DNA from: a virus
Strand: one strand, 5' to 3'
Virus record (IMG/VR): IMGVR_UViG_3300030406_002796
Location: 1 to 52,397 of that record
Length of the DNA: 52,397 nucleotides
The first letter of the stretch is position 1. Every line of letters begins with the position of its first letter. Shown piece after piece: positions 4,060 through 52,397 of this stretch. The translations under genes and the position numbers were made by a program. Under the pieces are notes generated by a model. The model made no database searches. It was not told the origin of the DNA and was given only the letters and a program-made list of their open reading frames with translations.

Positions 4060-4203
4060 TTATTTCTTTTCTTCTACTTCTTCATCTTCTTCAAGAAAAT
4101 CTAAGTGATTTTCCTTCTTTTCATAAAGTGTAGGACCATAGTAGTCTTGATACATTATGTAAATCCAGTGAAGAATTAGTAATGTTATTATTAAATCGCA
4201 CAT
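4060..4203 (-). CDS. Small membrane protein with acidic tail (47 aa)
   Basis: This 47-codon frame begins MCDLIITLLILHWIYIMYQ, a single hydrophobic span, followed by a strongly acidic cytoplasmic-type tail (DFLEEDEEVEEKK). It sits one base downstream of the previous gene's stop and just before the tRNA. Function is unknown. An inner-membrane modulator of the host is possible. Confidence 0.6.
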   Translation of the reverse strand: MCDLIITLLILHWIYIMYQDYYGPTLYEKKENHLDFLEEDEEVEEKK

Positions 4204-4204
4204 A

Positions 4205-4492
4205 TTATTGTAGTGTTATACCGTTATTACTTGCTAATTTATCTAAAAACATGTCAATATCTGCTACATTTTTAGCGTCTATTAGCTCCTTTATTTCGCT
4301 GCAATACTCATATTCTTCAGTATTTTCAAAGTATTCTAACATTTCTTGTAGTTCTTCAGTGCGAAAGTCAAATGGATTACCATAAAACATTGCGCCTGCT
4401 CCGCTATATTGAGTTAAAACATCTTCAACACTCATCCTATTAGTGAGTACTCCAAACGAGTTTCTCATTAAATTATCTATATCTATTTCCAT
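4205..4492 (-). CDS. Acidic early protein with UVR-like motif (95 aa)
   Basis: This 95-residue acidic protein contains MLEYFENTEEYEYCSEIKEL at about residues 51-70. The segment follows the UVR hairpin pattern (Glu-x-x-x-x-Tyr-Glu-x-Cys-x-x-x-Lys/Arg) also seen in the 521-808 gene. I do not recognise the rest. Its start overlaps the end of the 110-residue gene by 10 bases. Confidence 0.7.
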   Translation of the reverse strand: MEIDIDNLMRNSFGVLTNRMSVEDVLTQYSGAGAMFYGNPFDFRTEELQEMLEYFENTEEYEYCSEIKELIDAKNVADIDMFLDKLASNNGITLQ

Positions 4493-10128: not shown

Positions 10129-11694
10129 ATGGAATATAACTTACCAAGCGATTTGGTTAAAAATCTAGACTTTGGTAGTGACGCTAAAAAAAGAGTTATT
10201 ACTGGAGTTAATAAATTAGCCCAAGCCGTTAAATCAACATTAGGTGCATCAGGAAAATGCGTTATATATGAAGATGGTAGAGGCAAACCGGTCATAACAA
10301 AAGATGGGGTAACCGTTGCAGAAAGCGTAGTCTTATATGACCCGGTAGAAAACATGGGTGCTACTTTAATCAAAGAAGCTGCCAGAAATACAGTTAAGGA
10401 TGCTGGTGATGGCACAACAACTGCTACAGTATTAGCTGAAGCAATAATCAAACAAATAGATACTGCGGTCGCAGAAGGTCTAACAATCAGAGAAATTAAA
10501 GACGGGGTTAACAGTACATTAAAAGATGTTATTGATTACTTAGATAGTGTAGCTATTGAAGTAAAAGATGATATGCTAAAAGCTGTTAGTGCTATATCAT
10601 GTAACAACGATAAGAAGCTAGGAGCTATTATAGCTGAAGCTTATGATAAGGTTGGTAAAAATGGTGTAGTGCTAATGGAAGAAAGCGAATCAGAAGATAC
10701 ATACGTTGATATTGTAGACGGTGTTAAAATAGATTGTGCTATAACTTCTCCACATTTTGTTACTAATACAGAAAAACAAACTTGTGAATTAGATAATCCT
10801 TTAGTACTTATATGTTCTTCTGAAATACCTAATGTGCGTAAGATACAAAATATACTAGAGTATGTTATTAAAAACAATAGAGCTTTATTAATAGTAGCGC
10901 CAGTGGCACAACAAGTTAAAGCCGCTTTACTTATGAATAAAGTAAAAGGTACTATTAAAGTTAATGTTATAGACTTACCAGGCTTTGGTCCTACTAAAAA
11001 AGACGCTACAGAAGATTTAGCTATATTAACTGGAGCTACAGTAATGAATGAAGAACTTGGTGATGATTTAGATTTAATGAAGCCAGAGCATTTAGGTGAA
11101 GCTGACTTCGCTGTAACTGATGATAAAAATACTGTGCTAACACTAGAAGGTATGAATCAAGATATTGAAGATAGGATAGATGAGTTAAATAAACATTTAG
11201 CTGAAGAGCAAAATAGTTTTATTAAAAAGAAACTAGAAGACAGGTTAGTTATGTTATCTGGTAGTGTAGGTATAATAAGGGTAGGCGCTAACTCTAAGGT
11301 TGAGTTAAAAGAAAAGAAAGACAGAGTTGAAGATGCTATATACGCTACTAAAGCAGCATTGCAAGAAGGTATTGTACCAGGAGGTGGCGTAGCATTATTA
11401 AACGCTAGCCAAAAAATTTCGACCAGCAGAGCTGGTAAGGTATTGCTTAATGCTTTATCCTCACCGTTTAATACTATATTAGATAATGCTGGTTTAGAAC
11501 AAGTAGCACCAAGACCTATTAAAGGTATAGGTGTAGATGTAGTAACCAGCAAAGAAGTTAACATGGTTGAGTCTGGTATTATTGATCCAGTGCTTGTAAC
11601 TAAGTCTGCACTTAAAAATGCTGTAAGTGTAGCTTTAACTATTATGTCAGCAGACTGTGTAATATCAAATATAAGAGTAAATGAAAGCAGTTAA
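10129..11694 (+). CDS. groEL: Phage-encoded GroEL-type chaperonin
   Basis: This 521-residue protein is a full-length group I chaperonin. It has the ATP-binding GDGTTTATVLA motif (D94), an apical domain, and a C-terminal equatorial segment with RVEDAIYATKAALQEG, whose D402 corresponds to the catalytic Asp398 of E. coli GroEL, then VPGGGVALL. The Gly-Gly-Met tail of host GroEL is missing. It would form an ATP-driven folding ring, probably for phage proteins. The groES gene follows with a 14-base overlap, the reverse of the usual host groES-groEL order. Its divergence and order argue for an old phage gene rather than recent host capture. Confidence 0.95.
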   Translation: MEYNLPSDLVKNLDFGSDAKKRVITGVNKLAQAVKSTLGASGKCVIYEDGRGKPVITKDGVTVAESVVLYDPVENMGATLIKEAARNTVKDAGDGTTTATVLAEAIIKQIDTAVAEGLTIREIKDGVNSTLKDVIDYLDSVAIEVKDDMLKAVSAISCNNDKKLGAIIAEAYDKVGKNGVVLMEESESEDTYVDIVDGVKIDCAITSPHFVTNTEKQTCELDNPLVLICSSEIPNVRKIQNILEYVIKNNRALLIVAPVAQQVKAALLMNKVKGTIKVNVIDLPGFGPTKKDATEDLAILTGATVMNEELGDDLDLMKPEHLGEADFAVTDDKNTVLTLEGMNQDIEDRIDELNKHLAEEQNSFIKKKLEDRLVMLSGSVGIIRVGANSKVELKEKKDRVEDAIYATKAALQEGIVPGGGVALLNASQKISTSRAGKVLLNALSSPFNTILDNAGLEQVAPRPIKGIGVDVVTSKEVNMVESGIIDPVLVTKSALKNAVSVALTIMSADCVISNIRVNESS

Positions 11695-38473: not shown

Positions 38474-41400
38474 ATGAAAGAATATATATTAAATGGAAAG
38501 ACTGTAAAAGTCTCTTCAGAAAACGAACAAGCATTTATTAAAGCAAATCCTAATGCTAAAATAAAGGAAACAAGCTGGTGGCGAGGAGAAGAAGGTTGGA
38601 TTCCAGATGAACTAGAGTTCTGGAAAAGAAAAGAGGAGTCGCCGGGAAAGTCAATAGGGGCAAGTCAGCCCCAAGAAAATCAAACAGAAAATACGGATTC
38701 ATCTTCGGCAACTGGTTTGTTGGGGTTTGTAAAATATAAACTTGGTGAAAAGTTTGTTAAGGTAGCTCCTGCTAATACTAAAGCATTTGAAAAGGAAAAT
38801 CCAGAAGCTACGCAAGCAACCTTTCAAAAAGGAACTATATTAGATAAAATAACAGATGATAAAGATACTATACCACAAGATAAAGGTTATCTTTCAGAAT
38901 TAGTATTATCATTAAAGCAAGGTAAAAGAGGTTTAACTACTGATGGCGCCTTTGATTTAATGCGTCATGGTAAAAATATAACTGACGAAAAGTTACAAGA
39001 GTGGGTTAGAGATGTAGAAAAATATGGTGGCGTGCCACAAACTCAAGCTCAAATAGAATATAATAGAAAACTAGAAGAGAATGGTGGTGGAATATGGGGT
39101 CACATAAAAGTAATGAGTGATCCTAGAAATACGATGTTAAGTTTAGAGTGGGTACCTCAACAAATACTAGGTTCTCTATCTACTATGGCTACGTCTCTTT
39201 ATGGATCTGATGAAGTAAGAGTTTCTGCGGCTGGTGGTGCAGGAGCGGGTGCTGTGGCTACAAGAAGTCCTTATGGCGGTGTAGCTGGTGCTTATAGTGC
39301 TGGTATAGGTGCTATGGAAGCAGGTCTAGAATTTACTGAGTTATTAAAAGAAGAGTTAGCTGAAAAGGGTGTAGATCCAAATGATTATGATAATGGTTTT
39401 ACAGCTGACAATATTAGATCTTTGATATTAGAAGATCCAGCTTCTTTAGAAAAAATTAGAAAAAAAGCTCTAGCAAGAGGTATGTCTATGGCGGTAGTAG
39501 AAGCTATGACGTTTGGCGTAGCGAGAGGTACTGGTAAATTAGTGTTAGATAAAACAATGTCTAAAAGTAAAACAGCGCTTGCTGTTACTGGAACAGAGAT
39601 GGTTGGTGGTGCTGCTAGTGAAGCCGCTGGACAATTTGCGTCTGGAGGTACAGCAGAGCCTGGCGGGTTTAGTGTTCAAAAAGGTATTGAAAACTTAGAT
39701 AGTGGAGATATTTTTATTGAAGGTATATTAGAAGGGCCAACAGCTGTTTTAAATACTGACATATTATTTTCTGGATCAAGAGGTGAAAAGTATACTATTA
39801 ATGGAAGTGAGGTAACTAAAAAAAGAGTTGTTAGCATACTTCAAGATAATGATCTTACAACTCAAGAAAAAGCAAAAATTCTTTCTAATATAGAAATAAC
39901 TAACGATAAAACTCTACAGTCTTATTTAGATAAAGCTTTAAGTGATATAAATATAGAAATGAATATAGACGCTAGAGTTGTTGATAGAGCTGATAGAAAA
40001 CGTTTGGTTGAGCTAGAAAATCAAAGAAGAAAAGCAGAAGCTGATACTAAAAAAACTGGAGTGTTTTCTGTTTCAGATGCAGATAAAAAACTAAATGATA
40101 TAAATTTAGCTATAGAAGAAATACTAGCTCCATATCAAAATCAAATAGATAAAAATCTTTCAGATGTACAAATACAAAGAGATCAAGCAGCTGAGTTTAA
40201 TCAGAACATGTCCGAAAGAATTTTTAAAAGTAATTTAGAGTTTGCTAAAAAACATAGTGCCTTGTATGGTTTAAATGTAAATGATACTTTAACTAGAGAG
40301 GAAATACGTAAAGCCTATGGAGATGAGGCTGCTGATGCAGATGGATTTATTGATGGTGATCAAATAATTATAAATAGCGAGGTAGCTCAGTTTACAGATG
40401 CTGTTAATGTTGGTAACCACGAGTTGTTGCATGGTATACTTAGAAAAGAAATGAAGAACAACCCAAACCAATTTGCCAATATAAGGCAAGAGTTGTCTCA
40501 ACAAATAGGTAATCAATGGCAGTATGTAGAAAACAGAGTTAAAGAAGCTGGATATACAGAGCAGTATATGATAGAAAATCCTGATGAGTGGATTACGTTA
40601 ACTTCAGATGCTATAGCTAACGGTCAGATAACCTATAGTGAAAGTGTGTTCCAACCATTAATGGATTTTATTTTACCTATACTTAGGGCTGCTGGATTTA
40701 AGAAAATAAAGTTTGATAGTGGTAAAGATGTATTTGAGTTCTTAAAAGAATACAATAGAAGTATACACAAGGGCTCGCTGAGTAGTGGTATAGTTAGTGC
40801 TACACAAGGAGTAACGCAAGTTGAAGGAGGACCTAAGTTTGCTAAGTCTAATTTAGCTGGTATGTTAGATCGATTTGATGGTAACACTAGACGTATGATA
40901 AATCAAACTGTTGCTAGACAAGCTAATGGCGAACCAGTTGCGTTTAGAGAAGATAAATTTGGTAATTATATATCTAGTGTAGATTCAGAATTTGGACAAG
41001 AAGTAATGCCTATAGTTGAAAGTATAACAAAAAGATTATTTGATCCTATACCTACTAACATAGCAGATCAAGCCTCTGTATCAAGAGGTAGTTATCAATC
41101 AGATTTAGTAAATGAAGCTGCTACGTTAGTTAACAACGAGTATAATGGTAGACAACCACTTGATCAATTTGTTAGTAACAGATTAAATTTAAGAGCTCAA
41201 AGTTTAGCTCGTAGATTAGGTATAAAATCTGTAGAAGAAAGTTCTAAAGAAACAAGAATAAATCAAGGAGACTCTCAGCTACAAGTACAAGATAGAGACC
41301 AAACAGATACAGCGTTTGAAGAAAAAGATCTTTCACCACAACAGCAACGTAAAGATTTAAAAGAAGATACTAGACAAATAAACTCAGGTGAGTTTGTTAA

Positions 41401-44400
41401 AGATATATATATGTTTGACAACGAAACAACCATTGAGCCTTTGCGACAAACATTAAACGAAATTAATTACGACGCTAGCGGTTCTTACGAGCAGTTAGCT
41501 GCTGATATGGTTAGTCAACAAAACCCAGCAGAAAGTTCTAAAAACAAAGTTAAACCTACTGGTGTTTTATATCCCGCTCATAAATTACTATCAGAGTCTT
41601 ATTGGCAAGTTAATCCTAATTCTATAATAGCTAAACCTCAAACTCTAACGGTTCCAGAGTCTAATAATATTAGAACAAAAATAATAGAAGCTATAAAAAA
41701 TACTAGAACAAAAAAAGGTTTATCACCGGTAAAAAGAGTTGTAAGCGCTATATTACCAAAAACTAATTTAAATCCTAACACATTAACTTCTATAGGGCTA
41801 AGCACTAAAACATTAGAAGTATTTTATTTAGACAGAAATATAGAAACTGGTGAAACAACTAGACCTAAAAATTTAAAAGCTCAAGCGCTTAATATAAATA
41901 ACATGGCTGACTCTGATATACTAATGAACATTGGTATTACAAATGAGTTAACATTAATGCCTCATGATAGAAAATTTAATCCTATATTAAAAAGTTTTGT
42001 AAAGCAAGGTAATGCTTTAGTTATAAATCAAGAGATAAGAAGCTTAATAAAAGATCAAGCCGCTAACATTGGTGTTGGTAGACCAGATATATTATTTAGT
42101 AAGAGTGTTAAAAATTCTTATAGAAAAAGTCCTGCTGATTTAGCTAATGATTATAATATAAAATTAGTACCTGGTTCTTCTAAAACAAGAGCCAAAAACA
42201 GTATGTACAACGAAACCGAAACTTGGGCGCAGGCTAGAGACAGAGTGCTTAGAGAGTATTTAACCGAGTACCCTCAGTACAGAGTATTAATGCAAAAAGG
42301 TCTATGTGCTAGTAGTAAAAGAACTATGTATACTAGCGTTAAAGAGTTTAATGAAGCTGCTGGCCCTATGCCACCAGGTGTTGATATTATTAACGCTCTT
42401 AAAACTGAATATAATGTTAAAAGAAGGTTTACTCCAAAAGCTTTTAAAAAATTTAAAACAGAAAAATTTAAACAAGGTGAGGCAAAAAAATTAGAAACTT
42501 TGAAAGATTTTTTTGTGTCAATACAAGAATTTTCAGAGTCTAAAAAAATTGATGGAAAAGTAAGCCCTGATATGTTTTTGTTTTTAGAAATGTTAAGAGA
42601 TAGTTCGACTGGTGGCCAGGCTCATATTATTAGAATATTAGCTCCAGTTAAATTCTATACAGTTGACCAAAGAACTAGAAAACCAATATACGATAAAGAG
42701 GTTGTAGAAGAACATACTGATCCTCAAAATCAAATAGGTACAGCTTTAATGGACGCTGCTATAAACGGAAATGTAAACGAAGTGTTTGATGTTATAGGTG
42801 GTTCTTATATGCAAGGTTCTTTATTAGAAACGTCTGACAACTTGATAGCTAACAAAGAGAAAAACCCTAACAAAAGAGATTTAACTAGAGATATGCCAGA
42901 TTTTTATTTTGATGAGGTAATACCTAGAATAAAAAGTGGTGAACTAAAGTTACCAGATGGTATGGCATCTGTAGTTAGGATGGCGATACAAGGTGTAAAC
43001 TTAAATGAGCTAATGCTTATTGATTCTAATCAAACTATAGCAGAGTTTTTTAATGTTGGTATTGATACTAAAAATATGACTGATGCTCAAATAGAATATT
43101 TAATACCTTATCAAAATGACTTAATAATAAAACAGTTGACTACTAAAACGATGACCAAAACAAAGGCTCGTAATTCTATAAATAAAATATCTAAAACAGT
43201 TTACAAAAAAAATGCTAAACAACTACAATCTAGTTTAGATTCAAGTAAAGCTATTATTAATACATATAAATATAGTAAGTCTGGTAAAACAAGAGGTATG
43301 TCAACATTTGATTTTGATGATACATTAGGTTTTACTAAGTCTGGTGTTAGAGCTAATATACCTAACAACGATGGTCTACCTAAACCAGAGCGTAAAGTTA
43401 TATTCTTAGCTGGTGGTGCTGGTAGTGGTAAAGGTAACGTAATAAGAAAACTTAATTTAGAAAAAGACGGTTTTAAAATTGTAAACTCAGATATATCTTT
43501 AGAGTGGTTAAAGAAAAACTCAGGACTACCTGCTGATATGCGAGACTTAACTAAAGAACAAAGAAGCACATTAGGTAAGCTAGGAGCTCAAGCTAGAAAA
43601 ATAGCTAGAGGTAAAATGATGAAGTACCAGGGTAACGCAAATGGAGTTGTTGTCGATGGTACTGGTGGATCTGTTAGAACAATGCAGAAGTTAGTAGATG
43701 AATTTAAATCTAAGGGATATGATGTTAGCATGATATTTGTAGATACATCATTAGATGTAGCCTTACAACGTAACAGGGCTAGACAAGAAAGATCGTTGTT
43801 AGATAAAATAGTTATACGTAATCATGAAGCTGTTCAAGGAAATAAATCTTCTTTTAAAGAAATGTTTGGCGATAGATTTATGGAAGTTAATACAGATAAC
43901 TTAACGCAACAAAGCCCCATGCCGACTGATTTAGTTAACAATGTTACTGACTTTGTTTCTGGTTATGAAAGACGTAGATTAGATGCTGAAGAGTTTGCCG
44001 CAGAAGGAGATGCTATATTAGAACAAGGTGGTGAGTTTGATTTTTCAGAGTTTAATGATGTTGTTGACGGAACGCCAGGTCCTTTACTAGAAAAAGCTAG
44101 ACAAAGGGCAGCTAAGTATGGAACGAAAGACATGTTTGTTTTAACTGCTAGACCTCAAGCTGCCGCACCAGCGATAAAACAATTTTTAAAATCACAAGGT
44201 CTAGATATACCATTAAAAAATATAACTGGCTTAGCTAACAGCTCTGGTAATGCTAAGGCTCAATGGATGTTAGGTAAATTTGCAGAAGGCTATAACGATA
44301 TGTACTTTGTAGATGATGCTTTACAAAATGTTGAAGCCGTTAAACAGGTGTTAGATCAATTAGATATTAAGTCAGATGTTGTGCAAGCTAAAAGAAAGTT

Positions 44401-46507
44401 TAGTAAATCAGCTAGTCAAAACTTTAATACAATACTAGAAGAGTCTCAAGGGACTAACAGGAACAGAACGTTCTCTTATCAAGAAGCTAAACGTTTAGGT
44501 AAAAACAAAGGTTGGTGGAGAATATTTGTACCACCTTCGGCTGAAGACTATAAAGGTTTATTGTATAGATTTTTAGGTACAGGTCGTCAAGGTGAGTTAC
44601 ACATGAAGTATTTAAAAATTAAACTGCTAGACCCGTTTGCTAAAGGTATAAGATCGTGGAATATATATAAGCAAGAGATGGTAAATGAATATGCTCAATT
44701 AAAAAAGAATCTACCTAACGTTGCTAAAGGTTTAACCGCTAAAGTAGGTGAGACTGGTTTTACTACAGATGACGCAATAAGAGTTTACTTGTGGGATAAA
44801 AACGGATTTAATATTCCAGGTATTGATGATGCTACAAAACAAGAGCTAATTGATTTTGTAAACAGATACGGTAACGTTAAAGCTTTTGCTGATACTTTAA
44901 GTAGAATAACTAAGACACAAGAAGGTTATGTTGCACCAACTGAAAACTGGTCACTTGGTAGTATATCAACTGATTTAAATAATGTCGTTAACAAAGTTGG
45001 TAGAAAACAATTTTTAGCAGAGTACTTAGCTAATTCAGAAGCTATATTTACTCCTGAAAATATGAATAAGATAGAGGCTTTATATGGTACTACATTTAGA
45101 GAAGCTTTAGAGAATATAATGTATCGTATGGAAAACGGTGGTAACAGAAGAGTTAGTACTGATAGAAATGTAAATAGAATGCTTAATTGGATTAACGGTT
45201 CTATTGGCGCTATTATGTTTTTTAACATGAGATCTGCATTACTACAAACTATATCTACGGTTAACTTTATAAACTGGAGTGATAATAATATATTTAAAGC
45301 ATCAGCCGCATTTGCTAATCAACCTCAATTTTGGACGGACTTTGCTACACTATTTAACTCACCACAATTAAAACAAAGAAGAAAAGGTATACAAATAGAT
45401 GTATCTGCTTCAGAATTATCTAGAGCTTTTTCTGATGGTAAAGGCACACCTCAATCTGTTATTAGCTGGTTATTAGAAAAAGGTTTCACCCCAACACAAG
45501 TTGCGGATAGCTTTGCTATTTCTTTTGGTGGCGCTAGTTTTTATAGAAACAGACTTAACAAATATAAAAAACAAGGATTTTCAGAGCAACAAGCTAATGA
45601 AAAGGCTATGTTAGATTTTCAAGAGATAGCTGAAGAAACACAACAGTCTTCAAGAGAAGATTTAATATCACAGCAACAGGCTAGTGTATTAGGTAGATTA
45701 ATACTAGCGTTTCAAAACGTTACAATGCAATACACTCGTTTAACAAAGAAAGCTTTATCTGATTTAATAAATGGTAGGGGGGATATGAAAACAAATATAT
45801 CTAAGATACTATATTATGGTATGGTACAAAATTTAATATTTGCTAGCTTACAATCGGCCTTGGCATTTGTTATTTGGGGAGACGATCAAGAAGACATAGA
45901 AGATAAAACTCTTAGAACAGCTAATAGCGCTTTAGATTCTTTTTTACGTGGTACTGGTATATACGGAGCAATAGTATCTACTGTAAAAAATACTATTATA
46001 CAGGCTGAAAAACAAAAGAAGAAAAGCTGGGGTAGAGAAGATGGTAGAACTTTATTAGAGTTAACTAATATATCTCCACCTATAGGTAGTAAGTTAAGAA
46101 AAATATACAACGCTATTAAAACAGAGCAGTATAACAAAGGTGTATCTGAAGAATTAGGACTTAGAATAGAAAACCCAACATTACATAAATGGGCTAGTAT
46201 AATTGAAGCAACTACAAATATACCAACACAAAGATTAATTAAGAAAGCTAATAACTTAGAAGAAGCTATAACAGGCAATCACTTAACATGGCAACGAATA
46301 GCCTTAGGTCTTGGCTGGAATAGATGGGATATTGGTGTTAAGGACGAAGAGCTTGAAGCTGCTAAAAGTGCCGCTAAGTCTAAAAATAAAAGTAATAAGA
46401 AAAGCAATAAGTCTAGTAGTAAAAGATGCTCTGCTATAAAGAAAAGTGGTGGAAGATGTAAGAACAATACTAGAAATAAAAGCGGTAGATGTTATGCTCA
46501 CCAATAA
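38474..46507 (+). CDS. Giant polyvalent internal virion protein (2677 aa)
   Basis: The N-terminus holds two copies of a short Tyr-Ile/Lys-Leu module (YILNGKTVKVSSENEQAFIK and YKLGEKFVKVAPANTKAFEK). A zinc-peptidase HELLH lies at 649-653. A HAD phosphatase is built from motif I FDFDDT (D1613, D1615), motif II T1891-A-R-P, K1928 and D1947-D1948. Between motifs I and II sits a P-loop kinase (GGAGSGKG at 1647-1654, with RNRARQERS near its lid), a layout like polynucleotide kinase/phosphatase. Long helical stretches follow, and the end is a CCCH-type knuckle (C2652, C2662, C2673, H2676). Proteins of this type are packed in the head and ejected into the cell, where their enzymes act. The ejection role is inferred. 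Confidence 0.82.
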   Translation: MKEYILNGKTVKVSSENEQAFIKANPNAKIKETSWWRGEEGWIPDELEFWKRKEESPGKSIGASQPQENQTENTDSSSATGLLGFVKYKLGEKFVKVAPANTKAFEKENPEATQATFQKGTILDKITDDKDTIPQDKGYLSELVLSLKQGKRGLTTDGAFDLMRHGKNITDEKLQEWVRDVEKYGGVPQTQAQIEYNRKLEENGGGIWGHIKVMSDPRNTMLSLEWVPQQILGSLSTMATSLYGSDEVRVSAAGGAGAGAVATRSPYGGVAGAYSAGIGAMEAGLEFTELLKEELAEKGVDPNDYDNGFTADNIRSLILEDPASLEKIRKKALARGMSMAVVEAMTFGVARGTGKLVLDKTMSKSKTALAVTGTEMVGGAASEAAGQFASGGTAEPGGFSVQKGIENLDSGDIFIEGILEGPTAVLNTDILFSGSRGEKYTINGSEVTKKRVVSILQDNDLTTQEKAKILSNIEITNDKTLQSYLDKALSDINIEMNIDARVVDRADRKRLVELENQRRKAEADTKKTGVFSVSDADKKLNDINLAIEEILAPYQNQIDKNLSDVQIQRDQAAEFNQNMSERIFKSNLEFAKKHSALYGLNVNDTLTREEIRKAYGDEAADADGFIDGDQIIINSEVAQFTDAVNVGNHELLHGILRKEMKNNPNQFANIRQELSQQIGNQWQYVENRVKEAGYTEQYMIENPDEWITLTSDAIANGQITYSESVFQPLMDFILPILRAAGFKKIKFDSGKDVFEFLKEYNRSIHKGSLSSGIVSATQGVTQVEGGPKFAKSNLAGMLDRFDGNTRRMINQTVARQANGEPVAFREDKFGNYISSVDSEFGQEVMPIVESITKRLFDPIPTNIADQASVSRGSYQSDLVNEAATLVNNEYNGRQPLDQFVSNRLNLRAQSLARRLGIKSVEESSKETRINQGDSQLQVQDRDQTDTAFEEKDLSPQQQRKDLKEDTRQINSGEFVKDIYMFDNETTIEPLRQTLNEINYDASGSYEQLAADMVSQQNPAESSKNKVKPTGVLYPAHKLLSESYWQVNPNSIIAKPQTLTVPESNNIRTKIIEAIKNTRTKKGLSPVKRVVSAILPKTNLNPNTLTSIGLSTKTLEVFYLDRNIETGETTRPKNLKAQALNINNMADSDILMNIGITNELTLMPHDRKFNPILKSFVKQGNALVINQEIRSLIKDQAANIGVGRPDILFSKSVKNSYRKSPADLANDYNIKLVPGSSKTRAKNSMYNETETWAQARDRVLREYLTEYPQYRVLMQKGLCASSKRTMYTSVKEFNEAAGPMPPGVDIINALKTEYNVKRRFTPKAFKKFKTEKFKQGEAKKLETLKDFFVSIQEFSESKKIDGKVSPDMFLFLEMLRDSSTGGQAHIIRILAPVKFYTVDQRTRKPIYDKEVVEEHTDPQNQIGTALMDAAINGNVNEVFDVIGGSYMQGSLLETSDNLIANKEKNPNKRDLTRDMPDFYFDEVIPRIKSGELKLPDGMASVVRMAIQGVNLNELMLIDSNQTIAEFFNVGIDTKNMTDAQIEYLIPYQNDLIIKQLTTKTMTKTKARNSINKISKTVYKKNAKQLQSSLDSSKAIINTYKYSKSGKTRGMSTFDFDDTLGFTKSGVRANIPNNDGLPKPERKVIFLAGGAGSGKGNVIRKLNLEKDGFKIVNSDISLEWLKKNSGLPADMRDLTKEQRSTLGKLGAQARKIARGKMMKYQGNANGVVVDGTGGSVRTMQKLVDEFKSKGYDVSMIFVDTSLDVALQRNRARQERSLLDKIVIRNHEAVQGNKSSFKEMFGDRFMEVNTDNLTQQSPMPTDLVNNVTDFVSGYERRRLDAEEFAAEGDAILEQGGEFDFSEFNDVVDGTPGPLLEKARQRAAKYGTKDMFVLTARPQAAAPAIKQFLKSQGLDIPLKNITGLANSSGNAKAQWMLGKFAEGYNDMYFVDDALQNVEAVKQVLDQLDIKSDVVQAKRKFSKSASQNFNTILEESQGTNRNRTFSYQEAKRLGKNKGWWRIFVPPSAEDYKGLLYRFLGTGRQGELHMKYLKIKLLDPFAKGIRSWNIYKQEMVNEYAQLKKNLPNVAKGLTAKVGETGFTTDDAIRVYLWDKNGFNIPGIDDATKQELIDFVNRYGNVKAFADTLSRITKTQEGYVAPTENWSLGSISTDLNNVVNKVGRKQFLAEYLANSEAIFTPENMNKIEALYGTTFREALENIMYRMENGGNRRVSTDRNVNRMLNWINGSIGAIMFFNMRSALLQTISTVNFINWSDNNIFKASAAFANQPQFWTDFATLFNSPQLKQRRKGIQIDVSASELSRAFSDGKGTPQSVISWLLEKGFTPTQVADSFAISFGGASFYRNRLNKYKKQGFSEQQANEKAMLDFQEIAEETQQSSREDLISQQQASVLGRLILAFQNVTMQYTRLTKKALSDLINGRGDMKTNISKILYYGMVQNLIFASLQSALAFVIWGDDQEDIEDKTLRTANSALDSFLRGTGIYGAIVSTVKNTIIQAEKQKKKSWGREDGRTLLELTNISPPIGSKLRKIYNAIKTEQYNKGVSEELGLRIENPTLHKWASIIEATTNIPTQRLIKKANNLEEAITGNHLTWQRIALGLGWNRWDIGVKDEELEAAKSAAKSKNKSNKKSNKSSSKRCSAIKKSGGRCKNNTRNKSGRCYAHQ

Positions 46508-48743: not shown

Positions 48744-49045
48744 TGGCAAAATATATAAATCAAAGTGGAGATACCGGTGGTGGTGATTTAACGTTATTAC
48801 AAAAGCACGTTAATAAAATTATAGTTAAGTCTATAACTATAACGTGTACTCACGCGTCTAATGATTTGGTAATTGATAGACTTTATTTAGATAATGGTAC
48901 TAATGAGTTCGATATACTACATGCTGTTACGGTTCCTTTGGGTGCCACACTTTTATTAGACGAAGGTTTTAACTATGACTTTAAGAATTTTGATTTAAAA
49001 ATAGAAACATCAGGTTCTTCAAGTTGTTCAATAATAATTATATAA
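48743..49045 (+). CDS. Small beta-rich protein (100 aa)
   Basis: It begins MAKYINQSGDTGGGDLTLLQ, contains KHVNKIIVKSITITCTHASN, and ends in a Ser/Cys/Ile-rich strand (SSSCSIIII). Its last base is the first base of the endolysin start (TAATG), so the two are coupled. It resembles a small virion or fibre component. The function is unknown. Confidence 0.6.
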   Translation: MAKYINQSGDTGGGDLTLLQKHVNKIIVKSITITCTHASNDLVIDRLYLDNGTNEFDILHAVTVPLGATLLLDEGFNYDFKNFDLKIETSGSSSCSIIII

Positions 49046-49653
49046 TGAAACTAACAAAAGAAATAATAGAGAAAGCCGTAAAAGAAAAAGGCTATAAATG
49101 GTTTGAAACAGGTGACTATAATATTAATATAGTTGGCGTAAGAAACTCTGATACAGGAAATGAAGTCACAAATAAGTTTGATGATAAAATTACTTTATCA
49201 TTTAAATGTGATGGGCAATGGGAGTTTTACGAGTACGATTGCACTACAGATCCCGGTAAATATTGGGTGGAGAATATAATGAGAAAGGAAGGTGTTGCTG
49301 TATTGAAAGAAGGGCAGTATCGTGGTTCTCATAAAATTAGATTACATCAAGGTAGATACGAAGCGTTAGGACAAAACGGTCCTGTTACAGTTTACCGTGA
49401 TGCTAATAAAGATAATAAGTTTGATTTAAGTAATGAAAATACTCAAACAGGTTTGTTCGGTATTAATATACATAGAGCAACTAAATGGGGTGGTAAAAAA
49501 TCTAAGCAAGTAGACAAATGGTCTGCTGGCTGCCAAGTTATAGCAGCTAATGATGATTGGCACGAGTTTATGGATATATGCAGAGTTGCTAGAGATAAAT
49601 GGGGTAATAGCTTCACATACACATTAATAGAAAGTAAAGATTTAAAATTATAA
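49045..49653 (+). CDS. Endolysin, L,D-transpeptidase-like
   Basis: I chose MKLTKEIIEKAVKEKGYKWF because it starts one base inside the previous stop; a longer frame would begin with an implausible MFNNNYI. The 202-residue protein contains GLFGINIHRATKWG and KWSAGCQV, with H143, S160 and C163 matching the His/Ser-x-Gly-Cys catalytic pattern of YkuD-type L,D-transpeptidase folds. In flavophages such proteins serve as peptidoglycan-degrading lysins. It lacks a signal peptide, so holin or another route must release it. Confidence 0.78.
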   Translation: MKLTKEIIEKAVKEKGYKWFETGDYNINIVGVRNSDTGNEVTNKFDDKITLSFKCDGQWEFYEYDCTTDPGKYWVENIMRKEGVAVLKEGQYRGSHKIRLHQGRYEALGQNGPVTVYRDANKDNKFDLSNENTQTGLFGINIHRATKWGGKKSKQVDKWSAGCQVIAANDDWHEFMDICRVARDKWGNSFTYTLIESKDLKL

Positions 49654-49655
49654 AT

Positions 49656-50297
49656 ATGGCACGTACAAATAAAAAAGGTGGTAACACAGCAGGATTAAAA
49701 GGTTGGTCTGCATTTACTCCTCAAGAAAAATCAATGAACAGATCTTCTCAACCTGATGGAAGAGCTAAAAGTAGTTCTATGCAAATGAAGTCTCCTAAAG
49801 ACTTTAATCCTGGTTTAAGGGCAGCATCGAAAGCTGGTAAGTTAGATAATAACCCTAAGTTTAAAGCCGCTGTTGACAATAGCTCTCCACAGAAAGTAGT
49901 TCCAGCTATAATGGCCGGCCTTACAGCTGCTGACTTATTATATCAAGGTTATAAATATGTTAAAAAAAGAAGTGGTAAAGCTGCTAGAACAGTAAAGAAC
50001 GAGATAAACAAAAGAAAAAGAGCAGATCTAATGAAAAGGTATAATGCTTTACCTCCTGAGATGAAGAAAAAAATAGGACCGCCTCCAACAATGCCTAAAG
50101 CCGGTGGTACTAAAACAGATAAACCTAAGTCTACAATTGGAAATGCAGGAAAGAAAACTAAGAAATTAACTTACGCCGAGGCTAAGAAAAATGATCCTAA
50201 TTTAGGGGCGTATGTTGCTGAAAGAAAGAAGCATAAAAAAGGATCTCCTGAATATAAAGCCGTGCAGGCTAAAATAAATGCTGCATATAGAATATAA
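49656..50297 (+). CDS. Basic protein with SPQK motif, relative of 7977-9503
   Basis: This 213-residue Lys/Arg/Ala-rich protein contains SPQK at residues 77-80 and a C-terminal module (EAKKNDPNLGAYVAERKKHK and GSPEYKAVQAKINAAYR, about 175-213). That module closely matches residues 331-370 of the protein at 7977-9503. It also has a second TPQE motif near the N-terminus. It is likely a DNA-binding internal virion protein. It lies next to the endolysin. Confidence 0.65.
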   Translation: MARTNKKGGNTAGLKGWSAFTPQEKSMNRSSQPDGRAKSSSMQMKSPKDFNPGLRAASKAGKLDNNPKFKAAVDNSSPQKVVPAIMAGLTAADLLYQGYKYVKKRSGKAARTVKNEINKRKRADLMKRYNALPPEMKKKIGPPPTMPKAGGTKTDKPKSTIGNAGKKTKKLTYAEAKKNDPNLGAYVAERKKHKKGSPEYKAVQAKINAAYRI

Positions 50298-50307
50298 CAA
50301 TTGTAAT

Positions 50308-51351
50308 ATGAAAAATTTATTATTATTATTTCTGTTGGTTAGTACTATAAGTACGGCACAGATAAAAGATTTTTTTCAGTACTCAACCTTTTACTCATCG
50401 ATGTCTATGAATACGTCGTTTGTTGAGAGAGAGGACTATAGAGCTGTAAACAAGGGTTATGAAGACATAACTGAAATTAATGCGTACGATTACAATTTAA
50501 CGTTAGGATTACGCAAAATAGCTAGATTTGATTATGAGACAAAAAGACAAACATGGTACACTGGAACCGAAAGAAATACTGCAGACAATGTTACTATTGG
50601 TAATGCTAATGGCTGGGAGTATTTGTTTAATTATTCTTTTATACGTAATCGTGGTGAAAAGTTTACTGAGCAAAATTTTTGGTTACGTTACTTGGGTGAT
50701 TGGTTTGTGGTTAAAGCACAGTACGCGGATAATGAAAGGGTAAACTTAAGGTATTCATCGTTAGATTATAGAATAAGATTTAACAAAGGTAACTGGGATT
50801 TTACTATTGGAACTATATTTAGAGTACATCCAGTATATGGAGTAAATCCTATTGAAGATTTTTGGATACCAGGTGAAAGTACGTTTCAAGATTTAGCAGG
50901 AGACTTTGGTTACGTACCACAACCTTGGAATCAAGGTTTTTATATAGACCAAAATTGGTACGACGTTAGTGGTGGAGACTCAGTGCTAGTAGCTACTTCT
51001 AACGATGAGTTCTTTAATCATTACTTTGGCGACGCGGTTGCTAGATACAACGAGCGTGAACTTGAAAAATTAGGTATGCAAAAAGAATTAAGTGCTGTTA
51101 TTGGTGTTGCTTATTATAAGTATACACCTAACTTTTGGCTACATACATGGTATAATTTTTTACCATACCATAAAGGATTAGATGATTACTCGTATGAATA
51201 CGAAGACAGTATGGCAGAGTGGGATGCTGGTATTATATTTGGAACTAAGATAACTAGAAGTTTAGGTCTATTTGTAGAAGGTACTCACATGAGATACTGG
51301 GGTAAAGAAATATACGAAGTAAAATTTGGGTTTAACTATTTAATATTTTAA
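50308..51351 (+). CDS. Exported outer-membrane beta-barrel-type protein
   Basis: I chose the start MKNLLLLFLLVSTISTAQIK because it gives a classical Bacteroidetes signal peptide (hydrophobic core, then STAQ cleavage). The longer frame would add ten residues before it. The mature protein (about 329 residues) alternates aromatic residues in strands and ends in FGFNYLIF with a C-terminal Phe, the usual sign of an outer-membrane beta-barrel. It lies 2 bases before the next exported protein. A phage-borne barrel could block receptor sites for other phages or modify the envelope. No domain is recognised. Confidence 0.78.
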   Translation: MKNLLLLFLLVSTISTAQIKDFFQYSTFYSSMSMNTSFVEREDYRAVNKGYEDITEINAYDYNLTLGLRKIARFDYETKRQTWYTGTERNTADNVTIGNANGWEYLFNYSFIRNRGEKFTEQNFWLRYLGDWFVVKAQYADNERVNLRYSSLDYRIRFNKGNWDFTIGTIFRVHPVYGVNPIEDFWIPGESTFQDLAGDFGYVPQPWNQGFYIDQNWYDVSGGDSVLVATSNDEFFNHYFGDAVARYNERELEKLGMQKELSAVIGVAYYKYTPNFWLHTWYNFLPYHKGLDDYSYEYEDSMAEWDAGIIFGTKITRSLGLFVEGTHMRYWGKEIYEVKFGFNYLIF

Positions 51352-51353
51352 TT

Positions 51354-52043
51354 ATGAAAAAATACATTATAATTTTATTTGCGTTTATAAGCTCGTTCGC
51401 TTATACGCAAGAACTAGACTTTCAAGAATTATGCATTGCATGTGCAGAGCAAAATGGTTTTTATTGTGGTGATGACCCAGCAAACTGGACACAATATTCT
51501 CCTAACGGTTGTGTACCTAATGGCCCAAATTTATTTTACTTAAACGACGGGTGGGAAGATTGTGTAGATGGTAGCGATGAAGCAAATGCTGTACCAACTT
51601 TAATAGAAGACTGCGGACCTATTGGACCTCCACCTTGTGATACAGTTTATGTAGACGTTATACAATATGAAACTATATTTGATACTATACCAGAGTATAT
51701 ATATGAAATTATAATTGATACTGTAGAAGTTGAGGTGTTTGTGCCTGAATATATTTATATTACTGATACGGTAACGGTATATGAAGATATATTAGATACT
51801 TTATTTGTTGATGTTATAGAATACGTAGATGTTTTTGTTTACGATACTATAGTACAAATAGAATACGTAGAGTTTATAGAATATGTTGACTGTGATACTG
51901 GTATGCCTTGTAGCTCTAATATACAAGAGATAATAAATAACTCTAAAAAAAATAATACAATATATAATATTAACGGGCAGGCAATAAAAGAACCAGAAGG
52001 ATTATATATTGAAGATGGTAAAATAAAACTTAAAATAAAATAG
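51354..52043 (+). CDS. Exported protein with LDLa-like domain, repeats and C-terminal sorting-like motif
   Basis: The 229 residues begin MKKYIIILFAFISSFAYTQE, a signal peptide. Residues 27-87 hold six cysteines and the sequence GWEDCVDGSDE (66-76), the calcium-binding signature of LDL-receptor class A repeats. A long Tyr/Val/Asp/Glu-rich beta repeat follows (about 95-180, with YVDVI, YIYIT, DTVTVYEDI). The end (IYNINGQAIKEPEGLYIEDG) resembles the short C-terminal sorting domain of Bacteroidetes secreted proteins of the type IX system. It appears co-transcribed with the barrel gene, so the two may work as a surface pair. Function is unknown. Confidence 0.7.
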   Translation: MKKYIIILFAFISSFAYTQELDFQELCIACAEQNGFYCGDDPANWTQYSPNGCVPNGPNLFYLNDGWEDCVDGSDEANAVPTLIEDCGPIGPPPCDTVYVDVIQYETIFDTIPEYIYEIIIDTVEVEVFVPEYIYITDTVTVYEDILDTLFVDVIEYVDVFVYDTIVQIEYVEFIEYVDCDTGMPCSSNIQEIINNSKKNNTIYNINGQAIKEPEGLYIEDGKIKLKIK

Positions 52044-52045
52044 TT

Positions 52046-52327
52046 ATGGCATTTAAAATGAAAGGTTTTTCAGGTTTTAAACTTGAAGAAGATAAAAAGT
52101 TTAAATCACGTTCATCAGACGTTATGGCTAAAGAAGGTGAATACAAAGGACAAATGGTTGATCCTAGAACAGGCATGCCTAAAGGCGTTTCTAAACCACC
52201 AAGTGACATGGAGGCAACAAACAAAGATAAAATAGATGCGTTAAGAATTAAGATGAAAAACGCTGAGCCTTTTAGTGATGAAGCAGAAAATATTAGACAA
52301 CAAATATTAAAACTAAGAGGAAAATAA
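52046..52327 (+). CDS. MAFK-tagged small basic protein
   Basis: This 93-residue protein starts MAFKMKGFSGFKLEEDKKFK, the same N-terminal tag as the proteins at 7593, 7977 and (variant) 9503. It has a VDPRTGMPKG linker and a C-terminal helical hairpin (DKIDALRIKMKNAEPFSDEA, then IRQQILKLRGK) reminiscent of the module in the SPQK proteins. It probably belongs to the same virion set. It shares a base with the next gene (TAATG). Confidence 0.68.
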   Translation: MAFKMKGFSGFKLEEDKKFKSRSSDVMAKEGEYKGQMVDPRTGMPKGVSKPPSDMEATNKDKIDALRIKMKNAEPFSDEAENIRQQILKLRGK

Positions 52328-52397
52328 TGGCAAAAGAACTTTCAGAAGAAAGCAAGTTTCAAATTAGCGTTAAAACATTAATCAGTATAGTAGTAGC
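52327..52397 (+). CDS. Start of a gene cut by the right window edge
   Basis: The first 23 codons read MAKELSEESKFQISVKTLIS followed by hydrophobic residues. This type of start occurs in small membrane or coiled-coil proteins of marine phages, but too little is visible to assign a function. Confidence 0.5.
   Translation, partial: MAKELSEESKFQISVKTLISIVV

Follow-up and report, generated by a model that had tools for sequence, protein, structure and literature searches.

A conserved gene cassette of uncultured marine viruses encoding a predicted outer-membrane barrel and a candidate type IX secretion cargo

Genes at the right end of the window

The DNA analysed here (the window) is one entire uncultured viral record of 52,397 bases, whose terminase and portal have relatives in Flavobacterium 'elemo', Cellulophaga, Maribacter Panino and Tenacibaculum phages. 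Near its right end lie two genes, A and B, with 2 bases between them (A ends at 51351 and B starts at 51354), as a preliminary description of this DNA had stated (Table 1). Upstream of A we find an endolysin-like ORF and, by inspection, also a tail-fibre-like ORF, while downstream of B a small ORF is followed by the first 71 bases of a third gene, C, the rest of which is cut off by the contig end. The start of A was set at the ATG at 50308, the mechanical ORF beginning at 50278.

Table 1. Positions of the genes and protein features around A and B in the window
Feature	Positions	Strand	Basis or remark
Endolysin-like ORF upstream of A	49042..49653	+	phrog_3000 E 5e-35; phrog_33083 (endolysin) E 7e-15
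Gene A, exported outer-membrane beta-barrel protein (predicted), 347 aa	50308..51351	+	signal peptide, AF2, Foldseek
A signal peptide, predicted cleavage before Q18	50308..50358	+	sequence, Q-rule check
Gene B, exported surface-type protein (head, stalk, C-terminal signal; predicted), 229 aa	51354..52043	+	89/89 linkage to A
B signal peptide, predicted cleavage before invariant Q19	51354..51407	+	Q-rule check
B head, six-cysteine LDL-receptor class A-like domain, residues 27-87	51432..51614	+	PF00057, PDB profile matches
B stalk, acidic, K/R-free, DTVYVDV/IEY-type	51639..51887	+	sequence; AF2 pLDDT <50
B putative C-terminal signal 'YNINGQAIKEPEGLYIEDGKIKLKIK', T9SS-type-A-like short form	51963..52040	+	profile comparisons; PMC3120885
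Small ORF between B and C, 93 aa, variable slot	52046..52327	+	
Gene C N-terminus, membrane-anchored coiled-coil protein	52327..52397	+	begins MAKELSEESKFQISVKTLISIVV..., as full-length C of relatives

Bacteroidota signal peptides follow a 'Q-rule', in which a glutamine occupies the cleavage site (PMC5837995). Both proteins were said to carry signal peptides of this Bacteroidetes type, and we find Sec/SPI signal peptides in both families, with a hydrophobic core and a glutamine at the expected cleavage site in 51/55 relatives of A, and with a hydrophobic core and an invariant cleavage-site glutamine in all 68 relatives of B.

Gene A had been read as barrel-like with a C-terminal aromatic residue, with structure prediction named as the check. 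An AlphaFold2 model built from 55 sequences (mean pLDDT 78.7, pTM 0.74) consists of about 12 long antiparallel strands and an 84-residue insert with a helix, and the terminal residue is a phenylalanine, as it is in most members of the family. Within the strands the alternation of hydrophobicity exceeds that of shuffled sequences (p about 0.01; 0.011), and the best Foldseek matches in the PDB are outer-membrane barrels (NanC, FapF, autotransporter beta domains and OMPLA; E 3e-5 to 1e-3). Because all Foldseek TM-scores lie below 0.53, this resemblance is one of fold class and not of family. With its signal peptide, its amphipathic antiparallel strands closing a barrel in the model and its C-terminal aromatic residue, A is, as predicted, an outer-membrane-type barrel, and the lack of a signal peptide or barrel that would have spoken against the earlier proposal is not observed. 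One viral model in the structure database (A0A516LKJ4) is a clear relative (Foldseek E 8e-27, 30% identity), and relatives occur on at least 523 viral contigs in IMG/VR. No sequence family in Pfam, PHROG or the PDB fitted A, and, in keeping with the earlier view of the pair as uncharacterised, tblastn found no named-phage relatives of A or of B. Host genome contigs, where candidates came from two short patterns only, held no relatives of A, nor did a Crocinitomicaceae metagenome-assembled genome (MAG). The family is under purifying selection (median dN/dS 0.15). Conservation of the loops is similar to that of the strands, with no hypervariability, so nothing points to an arms race with other phages; this argues instead for a conserved partner.

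Gene B had been described as a cysteine-rich repeat protein. It does possess nine cysteines (six in residues 27-87, one at 95 and two at 180/186), but the repetitive part (about residues 96-178) is free of them. The six cysteines of the head are invariant among relatives, and 48 of the 68 match PF00057 weakly at E<=1 (best 4e-4), the window B itself scoring 14.7 bits, below the cut-off of 24.1. When a profile of the head was compared with the PDB almost all matches were LDLa-containing chains, the best single-domain chains standing at around 1e-4. Together with its six cysteines the head carries the calcium-site acidic motif DxxxDC.D.SDE, with an N at the position of Cys4 and an extra cysteine on the N-terminal side, and from these features it is predicted to be an LDL-receptor-class-A-like domain that is one canonical cysteine short. 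The stalk measures 7-175 residues among relatives. Foldseek was uninformative for B, whose stalk is poorly modelled, the weak matches being LDLa proteins, and the regions of B are under purifying selection (median dN/dS 0.19-0.32).

The tail of gene B and its host relatives

The C-terminus of B follows a pattern that is conserved among relatives (YN..GQ.I..P.GLYI.NGK.K). The curated T9SS models TIGR04183 and PF18962 matched none of the 68 members, and gave nothing above cut-off in 40 viral records. When profiles were compared, the B tail matched the 27 T9SS domains of the Crocinitomicaceae MAG with P 1e-4 to 4e-4, over 9-10 aligned columns only, and control profiles (the C-termini of A, those of D, described below, and reversed B) gave P 0.2-0.4. 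We also find the B-type short tail at the very end of three exported Flavobacteriales proteins, which are likewise missed by TIGR04183. Surface translocation of GFP in Porphyromonas depended on the final 22 residues (motifs D and E) of a cargo signal (PMC3120885), which makes a short T9SS signal plausible, although the B tail is shorter than the seven-stranded C-terminal domain of characterised T9SS cargo (PMC11285876). The three Flavobacteriales proteins (L196, L197 and L198), which end in 'YDLLGREI...LYIQNGKK' and are missed by Pfam as well, might possibly represent an unrecognised short class of T9SS signals.

A host counterpart of the head was found in a chromosomal Crocinitomicaceae protein (L157:7956-11372), to two tandem domains of which the B head is 68-70% identical. 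Similar to B this protein possesses the six-cysteine domain, a signal peptide and a T9SS tail, the latter putative in B; it differs in its length of 1138 aa, its two tandem heads, its full-length TIGR04183 sorting domain at the end and its chromosomal location in a genome from which the family A barrel is absent. The two-copy head fragment passes the PF00057 cut-off (37.2 vs 24.1 bits). Across the 395 class and 114 family genomes that were searched with the B head, the only clear match came from the one Crocinitomicaceae MAG; a second match (E 9e-4) was rejected as an unrelated Cys-rich protein without a signal peptide. A Sec signal peptide, as expected of T9SS type A cargo, is present in 68/68 B relatives. 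The tail and the host-like head make B a candidate phage cargo for the host T9SS, and Crocinitomicaceae and other marine Flavobacteriales are candidate hosts of the phages that carry it.

The cassette across viral contigs

The neighbours of A were compared in 107 non-redundant loci. Wherever 2.5 kb or more of sequence follows A (89 loci), B comes after A without exception, either directly (mostly at 1-4 bases) or behind a small insert, which bears out the proposed tight linkage of a phage-borne barrel with an exported partner. Of the 51 loci that extend 7 kb or more downstream, 47 have C and 49 have a fourth gene, D, and C and D are adjacent in each of the 45 loci containing both, with a 4-base overlap in many loci. 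Starting from D, where 5 kb or more of upstream sequence is present, the contig also carries A and C in 60/60 loci and B in 58/60. The two D loci that are without B are L273, where A is distant and encoded on the opposite strand, and L275, where the order is A-C-D-M15 endolysin-3TM holin; A-C-D without B is also found on several shorter contigs. In place of the two-gene system that was first proposed we thus observe a larger A-B-C-D cassette, in which A, C and D form the steadier core while some loci are without B.

By inspection the short C protein has a single membrane segment and a coiled coil. D is an exported protein with a thioredoxin fold (PF00085, 31-35 bits vs a cut-off of 23.5) in which CXXC is absent in 90/90 members, most having WNxxN instead. 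Among named phages tblastn returned no relatives for C and only weak thioredoxin matches for D. The D family (e.g. L002:11672-12067) is present on at least 531 viral contigs, and its type of N-terminal leader is also seen on some A proteins.

In 83/101 loci a gene of lysis type, be it endolysin-like, M15 peptidase, holin or DUF5675, is located no more than 6 kb from A, a figure that includes DUF5675 although its assignment is uncertain. Siphovirus-type portals neighbour the cassette in 20 loci, and in about 60 its neighbours are giant virion proteins or a terminase of podovirus type; it is therefore not bound to one capsid type. The distance matrices of A, B, C and D correlate (r 0.45-0.81), which shared ancestry explains, so that the correlation is not evidence of contact.

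In three loci where B was not found (L274, L279 and L282) another exported protein with a B-like C-terminal tail directly follows D. Against a combined B/host profile these tails gave E 1e-4 to 5e-3, the best non-B matches among 6952 ORFs. Only in L274 is B clearly missing, since L279 and L282 are cut near A. These alternative proteins are encoded at L274:4811-5350, L282:883-1434 and L279:633-1181; a 'DTYGDGWNG' motif was read in that of L274, and those of L274 and L282 have no Pfam family. Between C and D, L274 also encodes a small DUF2279/YfiM-like protein (4141-4443; PF10043 E 1e-4, below cut-off).

Candidate functions, known systems and other genes of the window

The preliminary description had suggested superinfection exclusion, receptor masking or outer-membrane disruption, a range which the T9SS-like tail, the host-derived LDLa-like head and the position near lysis genes narrow. 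We tentatively favour, with somewhat less than even confidence, a late-expressed cassette ('late' being read from gene position only) with which the phage remodels the exterior of its Bacteroidota host cell during infection, most likely against re-adsorption of released or rival phage before lysis. In such a scheme host BAM machinery would insert A into the outer membrane, Sec would take B across the inner membrane, and recognition of the B tail by the host T9SS would lead to its display on the surface, where the stalk would hold the disulphide-rich head away from the cell and A, with its long conserved loop, may anchor B or cooperate with it. The coated or altered surface would then stop released or rival phage from re-adsorbing before lysis. 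This reading is supported by the exported type of A and B, by the barrel fold of A, by the A-B linkage and C-D adjacency across different head modules, by the host-like head and T9SS-like tail of B, by the B-like tails that follow D where B was not found, and by the Cryophage precedent given below. Against it stand the failure of curated T9SS models to recognise B, the shortness of its tail, the missing canonical cysteine and low PF00057 score of its head, the lack of hypervariable loops in A and the cassettes that lack B, and the lysis-gene neighbourhood suits a role in lysis equally well.

Such a role, the chief alternative though one that we consider somewhat unlikely, would make A-C-D (with or without B) an envelope-spanning module that breaches or destabilises the outer membrane after the endolysin, with C in the inner membrane and its coiled coil in the periplasm (an i-spanin-like topology), D in the periplasm and A in the outer membrane. 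It would fit the greater constancy of A-C-D (A and C accompany every one of the 60 D loci, A being distant in L273), the frequent C/D overlap, the gene order of L275 and the lysis-type genes near A, uncertain DUF5675 included. However, no spanin family was matched, D is neither a lipoprotein nor a fusion protein, it is hard to see what a B bearing a host-type surface tail would do in lysis, and C-like proteins look widespread in marine phages, which we also count against it. Although the topology of C, by inspection, is compatible with a spanin pair, a lipoprotein partner was not recognised, and C/D was not adopted as a classical pair, D being a thioredoxin fold with an SPI-type signal.

LDLa domains are calcium-dependent binding modules, and with the variable stalk length and the exchange of the exported protein between cassettes this would suit a role in adhesion and spread, in which the B head binds neighbouring cells, particles or calcium-bridged polymers and infected cells clump near new hosts; in a variant of this idea A alters nutrient uptake as an auxiliary metabolic function. 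For a metabolic function, however, a position next to the lysis genes would be late, and we hold this alternative to be quite improbable. There is also a small chance that A-B-C-D is a dedicated, barrel-based envelope machine, in which D, a redox-dead thioredoxin fold, connects C at the inner membrane with A in the outer membrane and B or its replacement is an exchangeable, T9SS-delivered surface effector; if true, phages would have here a new means of controlling the didermal envelope as infection ends, in place of spanins or alongside them. That A and B are virion or tail-associated proteins, which the preliminary description had named as what would speak against its proposal, is very unlikely, for although they adjoin virion and tail genes in several lineages, their signal peptides are conserved, with the cleavage glutamine of B invariant, unrelated head modules accompany them, and the head and tail of B are host-like.

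Phage-encoded T9SS cargo is already known. Among Bacteroidetes phages, Cryophage encode cargo with type A C-terminal signals that varies between phages, and superinfection exclusion was proposed for it (PMC7468147); those proteins are enzymes or PA14 proteins in variable islands, whereas B is an LDLa-like stalked protein fixed beside a barrel within a conserved cassette, with a tail that is shorter than the Cryophage signals and that no curated model recognises. T9SS sorting domains were also reported for BACON-bearing gut phages (PMC6949934). The arrangement of a barrel gene beside a T9SS cargo gene resembles PorP/SprF in Flavobacteriia, but kinship of A with that family was rejected, the PF11751 profile giving P 0.45 (reversed-A control 0.056) and Pfam no match. 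Lambda Lom and Cor-type proteins are likewise phage-encoded outer-membrane or surface proteins, and Cor excludes superinfection; A has no countable sequence relation to them (one member matched phrog_1119 'Cor' at E 0.06), and barrel size and partners differ. In a partial literature search we found no description of the A-B-C-D cassette, of an LDLa-like phage surface protein or of family A, and the conserved cassette is apparently undescribed. It occurs on hundreds of uncultured marine viral contigs and on no named phage in the searched collection, and so would escape isolate-based work. If our favoured reading of a remodelled cell surface is right, Bacteroidota phages routinely borrow host type IX secretion and a eukaryote-like binding domain to redress the cell, which predicts T9SS-dependent display of a phage protein, bearing on superinfection exclusion or lysis in a major marine group.

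Two further genes of the window deserve mention. Positions 10129-11694 encode a GroEL-like chaperonin (phrog_5725, E 1e-135), and positions 38474-46507 a giant ORF of 2677 aa with a zeta-toxin/AAA_33 kinase domain at residues about 1640-1774 (PF13671 39.7 bits, PF06414 34.1 bits). HAD-like motifs (FDFDDT and VDDA), the HAD part being read by eye, lie on both sides of the kinase domain, and the ORF looks like a polynucleotide kinase/phosphatase within a probable virion protein.
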